Below, piece after piece: positions 4,380-7,778 of a stretch of DNA of 37,181 bases; position 1 is the stretch's first letter, and every line of letters begins with the position of its first letter. The notes beneath the pieces were generated by a model. The model worked only from the letters and a program-made list of their open reading frames with translations, did no database searches and was not told the DNA's origin. The translations under genes and the position numbers were made by a program. Source of the DNA: Kiloniellales bacterium. Its GTDB lineage: Bacteria; Pseudomonadota; Alphaproteobacteria; Kiloniellales; JAKSBE01. The DNA lies in the NCBI GenBank assembly GCA_028282935.1, contig JANQGU010000365.1, forward strand, positions 1 to 37,181. Reading direction: 5' to 3'.

Positions 4380-4454
4380 GGGCGCATAGCTCAGCGGGAG
4401 AGCGCCTCGTTCACACCGAGGAGGTCCCTGGTTCAATCCCAGGTGCGCCCACCA
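4380..4454 (+). tRNA. tRNA-Val (anticodon CAC)
   Basis: The sequence folds as a complete cloverleaf. The acceptor stem is GGGCGCA/TGCGCCC, the D stem GCTC/GAGC, the anticodon stem CCTCG/CGAGG with loop TTCACAC giving anticodon CAC (reads GUG), and the T stem CCTGG/CCAGG with loop TTCAATC. The discriminator base is A and a CCA end is encoded. I see no integrase gene or repeated tRNA 3' end nearby, so there is no sign that it served as an attachment site. Confidence 0.96.
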
Positions 4455-4605
4455 TCCACGGTCCCAGGCCTATCGGCTGCAATCCAATCCGCGTCCTCGC
4501 GGCGCCGAGCGACGGCGAGAAGCTGAACGATCAGGTCGCTTTCATGGCCTTGCGCTGTGCTAGGGTCGCGGCCGGTTTCATCGCTCCGGGATGGAGGGCG
4601 CGAAG

Positions 4606-5013
4606 ATGGGCGGCGGAAGACCGCGGAGGCGGACGACAGGCCTTGCCGTCGTGGCAGGGGTCATCCTGCTGACGGGATGCGGCAGCGACAGCAGCAGTAG
4701 CAGCGACTTCATACCTACGGACTTCCGGCCGCAGATCAAAGAGTACCGCGGCCAGGACCACTACCGGGCCTTCGCGAGCACGGCGGCGGCGGCGGCGCGG
4801 CGGCGCGCCTTTGGATCGTCCTGGAACCAGGGCAGCATCGACAGGGCCATCGACGATGCGCTGGAGCGCTGCCGGAGAAATGCCGAGATCGCGGAGTCCT
4901 GCCGACTCCACTACCTGGGAGACATCGACGTGTCGGGCCTGAACGAGGAAGAGCTCGGACGCGCCAAGGCGGTCTACAGACGCAACCTCTCGGCCACCAT
5001 CGACGATCTCTGA
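4606..5013 (+). CDS. Small putative lipoprotein, copy A of a tandem pair
   Basis: The product is 135 residues and I do not recognise a named family. The start chosen is the second ATG (MGGGRPRRRT) because GGAGGG lies 7 bases before it; the track starts 5 codons earlier. A twin-arginine-rich basic start and a hydrophobic segment end in the lipobox LLTGC, so the mature protein should be lipid-anchored at Cys, followed by a serine-rich linker. The body contains DHYRAF, a pattern of A..ALERC....C, and YLGDIDVSGLNEEELGRAKAVY, ending in ATIDDL. The gene at 5322-5702 encodes a clear paralog sharing HYRAF/HFRAF, the two cysteines, YLGDIDV, EEL..AK.VY and AT.DDL. The spacing of the AL..C....C block loosely recalls DUF4189-like secreted proteins, but that is only an impression. 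Confidence 0.75.
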   Translation: MGGGRPRRRTTGLAVVAGVILLTGCGSDSSSSSDFIPTDFRPQIKEYRGQDHYRAFASTAAAAARRRAFGSSWNQGSIDRAIDDALERCRRNAEIAESCRLHYLGDIDVSGLNEEELGRAKAVYRRNLSATIDDL

Positions 5014-5067
5014 CTGCGCCGCCCCGAAGACGGGCCGGTTCTCCGCATCCGATACGACCGACCCCAC

Positions 5068-5206
5068 GGCGCCGGCCCCTGTCCCTGTGGCTTGGCGTGG
5101 CGGTCTTCGATCAGTCCGCAGCGGGGCCTTTCCGTAGCTCGGTTCCACCTTTGCCCGGGTCGAGGCCACGCGGACATCGAGGCTGACCGTCCCCCGCCCT
5201 TCGGGG
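5068..5206 (-). pseudogene. Decayed duplicate of the 3' end of the downstream NAD-dependent epimerase gene
   Basis: Read on the minus strand, this segment encodes VSLDVRVASTRAK..PSYGKAPLRT and then, after a shift of reading frame, LIEDRHAKPQGQGPAP. The intact gene at 5788-6774 ends VSLDARVVSTRAKEELGYENVPLRTLIEDSHAWLQGQGLVP. The DNA similarity is visible directly, for example TTTGCCCGGGTCGAG in both, and covers roughly the last 45 codons. The fragment has at least one frame-changing indel and no start, so it is non-functional. It sits just after lipoprotein copy A in the same relation as the intact 3' end has to copy B, marking a past tandem duplication. Confidence 0.85.
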
Positions 5207-5321
5207 CAACGCACGCGCAGCACATAGCTGAGATGGCGAGATCACACTGACGCATAAGTTGTGCTAACATTTCGCACTGGTAGCGTTCTTTCGATCGGGA
5301 ATGACAGGGAGTCACGTTTTC

Positions 5322-5702
5322 ATGTGCACGGTGAGATTGGCGAGGGGCCTGACCGCCCTTTTCGTCCTTGTCCTGTTGGGCGGATGCGAGAACACCTCGT
5401 CGCTGCCGCCCTATTGGGGCGGGGACGTCGAGACCTATAAGAAGAGGCCCCACTTCAGAGCCTTTGTCCTATCGGGTCGCGGTGCGACCTCGAGCGCCGG
5501 CTACTCCTGGGTCTCCTCGCAGGAAAGTGCCGACGAGGCAATCAAACTCGCTCTCGATCGCTGCGAGTCCATGCCCATCGGATATGTCTGCAAGGTTGTC
5601 TACCTTGGCGACATCGATGTCTGGGGCATGAGCAAGGAAGAGTTGGAGCACGCGAAGGAGGTCTACACCGAGAATCCCGCGGCCACCAATGACGACCTGT
5701 GA
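5322..5702 (+). CDS. Small putative lipoprotein, copy B of a tandem pair
   Basis: The product is 126 residues from the ATG giving MCTVRLARGLTALF; an in-frame ATG at 5301 (MTGSHVF) is the alternative. AGGGAG lies about 10 bases before the chosen start. The signal sequence ends in the lipobox LLGGC. The mature part has RPHFRAFV, the block SWVSSQESADEAIKLALDRCE with a second Cys in YVCKVV, then YLGDIDVWGMSKEELEHAKEVY and a C-terminal ATNDDL. It is paralogous to copy A but lacks its serine-rich linker and alanine/arginine run. The function is unknown; an envelope location is inferred from the lipobox. It is convergent with the epimerase gene, 85 bp away. Confidence 0.75.
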   Translation: MCTVRLARGLTALFVLVLLGGCENTSSLPPYWGGDVETYKKRPHFRAFVLSGRGATSSAGYSWVSSQESADEAIKLALDRCESMPIGYVCKVVYLGDIDVWGMSKEELEHAKEVYTENPAATNDDL

Positions 5703-5787
5703 GGCGCGGAGCGTTCCGGCTCCCGCCCCCTGACGGCGATCTGAAAGCTCATCCCTAGAGCGGCGTGGGTTTTGGGCGGCGTGGATT

Positions 5788-6774
5788 TCAGGGCACCAGC
5801 CCCTGGCCCTGCAGCCAGGCGTGGCTGTCCTCGATCAGGGTGCGCAGCGGCACGTTCTCGTAGCCCAGTTCCTCCTTTGCCCGGGTCGAGACCACGCGGG
5901 CGTCGAGGCTGACCATCTCGACGCCTTCGGGGGTGATCTCCGGCTCGTAGCCCAGGACCGCGGCCAGCATCACGTTGATCCGCGCGACCGAGCGGAAGGC
6001 GAAGGCGGGGACGCTGCGGCTCGGCACCTTGCAGCCGGAAACCTCGCCGATGATCCGGAAGACCTTGAGCAGCGTCGCGTGCTCGCCGCCCAGCAGGTAG
6101 TTCAGGCCGCTGCGGCCGCGCTCGGCGGCGGCGATCTGGGCCCGGGCGATCGCCGCGCCGTGGCAGAAGCAGCCGGCGCCGGGCGCCGCCGCCGGGATCC
6201 AGCGGCTGCAGAGGTCGATCACGATCCGCGCCCAGCTGTGCCGGTCGTAGCGGCCCATGATGTGGCAGGGGTTCAGGATCACCGTGTCGAGGCCGCGCGC
6301 GCCGGCAGCGCGCACCGCCTCCTCGGCCAGGAACTTGGTGCGGTTGTAGTTGATCCAGGAGCCGCCGCCGAGCTGCGGCAGGTCCTCGTGCAGCTCGCCC
6401 TGCTCCAGGCCGTAGGTGTTCCAGGTCGAGGTGTGGAGGAAGCGCCGCGCCTTGGCCGCCAGCGCCGCCTCCAGGACGTTCTCCGTGCCCTCGACGTTGA
6501 TCCGGGTCTGGCGCCGGTCGTTGCGCGCCCAGACCGAGGTGTCCGCCGCGACGTGGAAGACCGCGTCGACGCCTTGGGGCAAGGCCCGCTTCAGCGACGG
6601 CGGGTCGAGCAGGTCGCCCTCGACCGGCTCGACCGGATAGGCCCGCAGCGGGCCGAGATCCGAGGTCGGCCGATGCAGCGCGACCACCGACCAGCCCGCG
6701 GCGGTCAGCTGCTCGACCAGGTTCAATCCCAGGAACCCGGTCGCGCCGGTGACGAAAGCGGTTTTATCGGCCAT
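5788..6774 (-). CDS. NAD-dependent epimerase/dehydratase (extended SDR, dihydroflavonol-reductase/HpnA-like)
   Basis: The product is 328 residues starting MADKTAFVTGATGFLG, with the Rossmann dinucleotide motif TGATGFLG near residues 9-16. GDLLD, VFHVAADTSVW and NVEGTENVLEAAL follow, as in extended short-chain dehydrogenases. The catalytic Tyr and Lys are in NYNRTKFLAE, and the upstream hydroxyl residue is in FLHTSTWNTYG. Similar proteins include dihydroflavonol-4-reductase-like and hopanoid-associated sugar epimerases; the substrate cannot be told from sequence alone. The start is firm because a strong GGAAGGAGGT ribosome binding site lies just upstream; the track's 391-residue ORF runs back through a REP-like repeat. 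A decayed copy of its last 45 codons lies at 5068-5206. Confidence 0.88.
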   Translation of the reverse strand: MADKTAFVTGATGFLGLNLVEQLTAAGWSVVALHRPTSDLGPLRAYPVEPVEGDLLDPPSLKRALPQGVDAVFHVAADTSVWARNDRRQTRINVEGTENVLEAALAAKARRFLHTSTWNTYGLEQGELHEDLPQLGGGSWINYNRTKFLAEEAVRAAGARGLDTVILNPCHIMGRYDRHSWARIVIDLCSRWIPAAAPGAGCFCHGAAIARAQIAAAERGRSGLNYLLGGEHATLLKVFRIIGEVSGCKVPSRSVPAFAFRSVARINVMLAAVLGYEPEITPEGVEMVSLDARVVSTRAKEELGYENVPLRTLIEDSHAWLQGQGLVP

Positions 6775-6959: not shown

Positions 6960-7778
6960 TCAAGCCGGCTTGCGCGCCGTCACCAGGACCGCCGGCATGG
7001 CGAGTTCGATCCGGCCGTCCTTGCGATGGCCTTCGGCCGCCTCCAGGATCGCCGCCTCGATTCGCGCCCGCGCCTCGGCGGTCTGGGCCTGCATCACCAT
7101 GGCCGTGCGCACGCCGCCCTTGTAGATCGCCTCGATGATCGCCCGGGCCGAGCGGTTGCGCCAGACCAGCGGCAGGTCCCGCAGGGCCGGCTCGACGAAG
7201 CCGGCCGCGCCCAGCAGCGCCGACGCCACCGCCGGGTCGGCCAGCCGGTCGGCGGGCGGTGCCGCGGGCAGGCCGACCTCGGCCTCGCCCTCGGCCTCGA
7301 TCGCGCCGCGGGTCAGGGCGAAGAACTCGCAGCCGTCCTCCGGCCCGCGCCAGATCGTGAAGCCGTAGCGTCCGCGCGGGCGCAGGACCCGGTGGGCCTC
7401 CGCGATCGCGGCCTCCTGGTCGCTCAGGTGCAGCAGCGCGAAGGAGCAGACCACGGCGTCGAAGCTGGCGTCGGCGAGGTCCAGGGCTTCGGCGTCGCCC
7501 TGCCGGAAGGCGATCCCGGGATAGTTCGCCCGCGCCCGCGCGACCATGGTCTCGGCGAAATCGACGCCCAGCACCTCGGCGCCGCGCCGCGCCGCCGCGG
7601 CGGCGAGATGGCCGGTGCCGCAGCCGACATCGAGCAGGCGCTTGCCGCCGAGCGGCCCCAAAGCGTCGAGAATCGGGGCGATCGCCGCGCCGGTCATCTC
7701 CGCGAAGTGATCGTCGAAGGTCGTCGCGCGCGCCGACCAGCCCTCGTACTCGAGCTGCTTGAAGCTCTTCTTCAACAT
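6960..7778 (-). CDS. Class I SAM-dependent methyltransferase
   Basis: The product is 272 residues from the ATG of MLKKSFKQLEYEGW, which has GGGGGAGAGG just upstream; the track ORF adds 11 unneeded residues. Motif I is LLDVGCGTGHLA (about residues 48-59), which binds S-adenosylmethionine; an acidic residue at the end of strand 2 is in LGVDFAE, then QGDAEALDLADASFDAVVCSFALLHL and HRVLRPRGRYGFTIW follow. This is the UbiE/Methyltransf_11 type. The C-terminal 120 residues are probably a substrate-binding cap. The substrate is unknown and the neighbours do not help. No membrane segment is seen, so it should be cytoplasmic. Confidence 0.9.
   Translation of the reverse strand: MLKKSFKQLEYEGWSARATTFDDHFAEMTGAAIAPILDALGPLGGKRLLDVGCGTGHLAAAAARRGAEVLGVDFAETMVARARANYPGIAFRQGDAEALDLADASFDAVVCSFALLHLSDQEAAIAEAHRVLRPRGRYGFTIWRGPEDGCEFFALTRGAIEAEGEAEVGLPAAPPADRLADPAVASALLGAAGFVEPALRDLPLVWRNRSARAIIEAIYKGGVRTAMVMQAQTAEARARIEAAILEAAEGHRKDGRIELAMPAVLVTARKPA

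Follow-up and report, generated by a model that had tools for sequence, protein, structure and literature searches.

Cargo addition at a conserved anchor has been described for the orphan immunity-gene arrays of the V. cholerae T6SS; there, homology-facilitated illegitimate recombination is the proposed mechanism, and the 3' end of a displaced effector gene may come to lie further back among the array genes (Kirchberger et al. 2017, PMC5361080). The locus reported here shares two properties with these arrays: cargo appears to be added by a conserved anchor with the older cargo kept and pushed back, and the displaced 3' end of the anchor may stay between cargo genes (PMC5361080). However, its anchor is a metabolic-type epimerase gene and not an effector gene, and its two cargo genes, lipoA and lipoB, are only putative immunity genes. 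A second point of comparison is provided by tRNA-associated insertion hotspots and small islands, which the locus resembles in that the variable cargo begins at a tRNA 3' end and, in one congener, is bounded on its other side by a partial copy of the tRNA 3' part. Unlike such islands, it spans less than 1.4 kb, shows no integrase-like gene among its ORFs as judged by eye, and carries as its repeated piece in the genome under study the tail of a protein gene rather than part of a tRNA. The process is thus of a familiar kind, and what is unusual about it is the anchor.

The window, a stretch of 37,181 nucleotides, is contig C335 of a draft genome (G000; 460 contigs, 81% complete), and the genus comparison comprised this genome and two congeners, G001 and G002. 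A variable slot of about 1.3 kb was delimited between the tRNA-Val (CAC) gene and the 3' end of an intact SDR epimerase gene (Table 1). The epimerase matched the Pfam Epimerase model (1.8e-31) and had orthologs in the congeners with 90% and 87% amino acid identity; it resembles HpnA, with a score against the HpnA model of 235.9 bits, under the model cut-off of 367.65. No tRNA-Val fragment was found within the slot of G000. Fourteen bases of the tRNA-Val T-arm (GGTTCAATCCCAGG, 4430-4443) recurred at 6720-6733, within the 5' portion of the epimerase coding sequence, and this recurrence was beyond chance in shuffles.

Table 1. Features of the variable slot in the window, and genes noted in other genomes.
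Feature	Position	Strand	Remarks and basis
tRNA-Val (CAC)	4380..4454	+	Left border of the variable slot; ARAGORN, synteny
lipoA, small lipoprotein, lipobox LLTGC	4606..5013	+	Distantly DUF4189-like; reading frame open from 4591 as well; ORF, family alignment
Spacer, lipoA stop to remnant	5014..5064	.	No homology to the spacer after lipoB; shuffle test
Epimerase 3' end (last ~142 bp), decayed and frameshifted copy	5065..5206	-	Read as a stranded resident tail
Putative added segment with lipoB	5207..5787	.	Composition; between two direct tail copies
lipoB, small lipoprotein, lipobox LLGGC	5322..5702	+	Paralog of lipoA; ORF also open from 5301
SDR epimerase, intact, HpnA-like	5788..6774	-	Right border, proposed recombination anchor; tail copy, 5789-5932
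Tsi3-family (T6SS immunity) lipoprotein gene	L060 7347-7823 (G001:C114)		Slot cargo of G001
Tse3-like muramidase gene	L147 3309-5095 (G002:C60)		Beside a Tsi3-family gene
Tse3-like muramidase gene	L138 5427-7183 (G013:C93)		Beside a Tsi3-family gene

The same slot was located in both congeners. G002 was syntenic with the window through 4455, where homology ended at the tRNA-Val 3' end, and again from 5776, with 240 bp in between that were non-coding and showed no convincing similarity to the slot of G000. This 240-bp spacer contained an inverted repeat (GCCGCCGACGTGT ... ACACGTCGGCGGC; L061 about 7710-7772, G002:C51), which may be a terminator or else a small repeat element. In G001 the slot held a single gene in the same orientation as lipoA and lipoB, and a 65-nt decayed copy of the 3' part of tRNA-Val stood directly before the epimerase. 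This gene scored above the cut-offs of both Tsi3 models, with 69.8 bits against PF22211 (Pfam cut-off 26) and 86.9 bits against NF038331 (NCBIfam cut-off 45). It looks like an orphan immunity gene, because no Tse3 catalytic domain was found in G001. Tse3-like muramidase genes were found beside Tsi3-family genes in G002 and G013, where the neighbours form apparent effector-immunity pairs. lipoA and lipoB were absent genome-wide from G001 and G002, each of which had only lipoC, a further member of the family. The preliminary description had asked how many copies relatives carry at this place, and both sequenced congeners have none. The contents of the slot thus differed in all three genomes; the site between the tRNA-Val and epimerase genes is a small hotspot whose cargo is exchanged within the genus.

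The tail copy in the slot of G000 proved to be genuine. The preliminary description claimed a pair of paralogous lipoprotein genes, behind each of which one and the same epimerase gene is represented by its 3' end on the opposite strand, and both parts of this claim held, the lipoproteins sharing 39% amino acid identity (E about 1e-17) and the tails 114 of 143 ungapped sites. The local alignment of 5065-5206 with 5789-5932 scored 140, compared with maxima of 32-34 in shuffles, and the lack of significant identity between the two tails that would have refuted the preliminary description was accordingly not observed. The block is slightly larger than the 5068-5206 first given for it, and the homology halts sharply at the epimerase stop codon, the adjoining spacers being dissimilar. 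Compared with the intact gene, the remnant is 2 bp short (opposite 5837-5838), and its reading frame is shifted. Of the 26 changes private to it, 4, 13 and 9 fell on codon positions 1, 2 and 3, from which it follows that it is under no protein-level constraint. Two copies of the epimerase tail were present in G000, including the intact one, and one in each congener; no further copy was found in these three genomes.

The interpretation of the arrangement as a single old tandem duplication was not sustained in its simple form. The order and orientation of the two units do agree, each consisting of a lipoprotein gene and then an antisense epimerase tail. However, a single event would give the whole unit one age, and both the spacers and the divergences disagree with this. 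Homology did not run through the spacers, as 5014-5064 and 5703-5788 were unrelated (shuffle p about 0.6), so that the unit is not colinear. Neutral divergence was also unequal among the parts: lipoA and lipoB were identical at 58 of 127 third codon positions, the tail copies at 114 of 143 sites (p=7.5e-9), and the synonymous divergence of the lipoprotein genes (dS 1.43, CI 0.89-3.9) far exceeded the divergence of the tail (K 0.24, CI 0.15-0.34). For scale, dS between G000 and G001 was 0.51 for lipoC and 0.24 for the epimerase, the lipoA/lipoB value being about three times that of lipoC. On account of the unrelated spacers and the diverged synonymous sites, a single tandem duplication was rejected. 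The tail is a genuine scar, which most likely records that cargo was added later to a variable slot, and a leftover gene tail beside paralogs need not date the duplication of those paralogs.

The age of the tail relative to the genus was assessed from its substitutions. The remnant grouped weakly with the epimerase of G000 itself (90/91), and placing it before the split of the genus cost 3 log units (p=0.07). Four states found only in the epimerase of G000 were common to the tail (5845, 5877, 5878 and 5896), three of them within a single 26-bp tract, 5874-5899. A young tail, arising after the split from the congeners, is favoured by these sequence comparisons but not proven, as gene conversion over the short stretch 5874-5899 could give the same picture.

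On a slight balance of probability, DNA with lipoB and the epimerase from a related haplotype joined a resident tRNA-lipoA-epimerase arrangement through homology-facilitated illegitimate recombination; of this reading, we infer the donor haplotype and the recombination step. The incoming DNA would have been anchored by homologous recombination inside the epimerase, and its other end would have joined illegitimately inside the 3' end of the resident epimerase, with the junction at 5206/5207. As a result, lipoB and its own spacer would have been added and the epimerase kept intact, while the last 142 bp of the resident copy would have been stranded, together with the resident spacer, between lipoA and lipoB, non-functional and subsequently decaying. 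Unrelated spacers on the two sides of the tail would be expected, because they would stem from different haplotypes, and the lipoproteins would likewise differ more from each other than the tail copies do. The arrangement in G001 would follow from the converse event, in which the tRNA served as anchor. Two features expected of such accretion were observed, namely an intact, conserved anchor gene whose end recurs as a stranded fragment amid the cargo, and site content that varies among close relatives (three genomes). A haplotype with lipoB and without lipoA was found in none of the three genomes of the genus, of which G000 is 81% complete. The regions upstream of lipoA and lipoB gave p=0.42, 0.05 and 0.008 under three scoring schemes; the lowest value came from the loosest scheme and the similarity is weak. 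Such similarity is also predicted by an old duplication, a point against accretion.

That same upstream similarity is one of the points in favour of a more elaborate duplication history, which we regard as unlikely. Here, one old tandem duplication of a lipoprotein gene with the epimerase 3' end would have preceded the genus, followed by gene conversion that held the tail close to the intact gene, divergence or indel replacement of the spacers, and loss in both congeners. The equal order and orientation of the two halves would be explained, as would the concentration of three of the four shared tail states in one short tract, and lipoA, lipoB and lipoC do fall into one genus-level clade. Against this history, conversion would have to be confined to a non-functional tail and losses would be required in both congeners, the spacers cannot be aligned, and recombination between direct repeats lying so near each other, whether by conversion or by crossing-over, would also tend to delete lipoB. 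Accretion and duplication can be told apart simply, by setting tail divergence against synonymous divergence and by testing the spacers for homology.

Site-specific integration was weighed as a further alternative and appears improbable. A small element bearing lipoB along with a duplicate of the epimerase 3' end would have integrated into this end of the gene, restoring the gene and displacing the original tail as a direct repeat. Direct repeats of a gene 3' end do flank the lipoB segment in the topology of attachment sites, with the 65-nt tRNA-Val copy as the equivalent in G001, and by topology alone, accretion is indistinguishable from site-specific integration into the 3' end of a gene. 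However, no integrase-like ORF was seen among the translations of 4456-5787, which were judged by eye, and lipoB had no match in phage, plasmid or viral collections. For an attachment core, a length of 142 bp would also be on the long side.

Two other explanations carry very little weight. One recent tandem duplication with very fast diversifying selection on the lipoproteins would account for a fairly young tail beside very different proteins, but it is contradicted by the strong divergence of synonymous sites as well (dS 1.43 versus 0.24 for the tail) and by the unrelated spacers. An assembly artefact or chimeric contig, conceivable in so fragmented and incomplete a draft, is highly improbable given that both flanks are syntenic with G002 and that the tail is a diverged, decayed copy, not a product of misassembly.

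Common to lipoA and lipoB are conserved cysteines, a lipobox and, at the C terminus, the block YLGDIDV...EEL..AK.VY, which, as originally noticed, has been kept in both despite their divergence. Judged by the lipobox, they are predicted to be lipid-anchored exported proteins. Their scores against DUF4189 (PF13827) were 14.2 and 14.8 bits, under the gathering score of 25; weak matches to this family were obtained for nine of 12 members of the lipoprotein family (best 2e-9), and a distant relationship is suggested by these profiles. Among 63 order-level and 385 class-level genomes there was no closer relative of either lipoprotein gene, and neither had a match on viral contigs. The predicted structure of lipoB, obtained from a two-sequence alignment, had a pLDDT of 62.8 and is too uncertain for fold matching; the fold search in the PDB yielded no meaningful match (best E 1.9), and no sequence relative of lipoB was found there. 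lipoB and its upstream region had a lower GC content than their surroundings, with 51% in 5207-5321. GC3 was 0.79 for lipoB, 0.85 for lipoA, 0.82 for lipoC and 0.69 for the G001 cargo, compared with 0.93-0.96 for neighbouring genes, and this lower GC and GC3 fits a cargo character.

A protective, immunity-like role of lipoA and lipoB is doubtful, being suggested solely by the company of the slot in G001, where it holds the Tsi3-family gene. Pfam and NCBIfam scans detected no homology of lipoA or lipoB to a known immunity family; neither matched Tsi3, and no Tsi3 was found in G000. No obvious effector was recognised among the ORFs listed beside other family members, which were judged mostly from the listing, with few profile-scanned. 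It is a speculative proposal, to which we give little credence at present, that the slot serves as a docking site in which each lineage gathers small orphan lipoproteins protecting against the toxins of neighbours (Tsi3 in G001; the DUF4189-like lipoA and lipoB here), with a non-toxin gene as anchor and with the tails of flanking genes recording additions. Should orphan immunity-like lipoproteins indeed accumulate in the slot, it would supply candidate new protective proteins in a little-studied lineage. The T6SS sheath gene (VipB) was present in G001 and G002, and none was found in the 81% complete G000.

lipoC was located beside a tRNA-Ser gene in all three genomes. A general tie of the lipoprotein family to tRNA genes was considered and dropped, as no tRNA was near members outside the genus. 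Close to lipoC and tRNA-Ser in G001, four direct repeats with a period of 66 were observed beside a Cas2 gene (L015 3623-4280, G001:C184), which likely represent a CRISPR-Cas locus.
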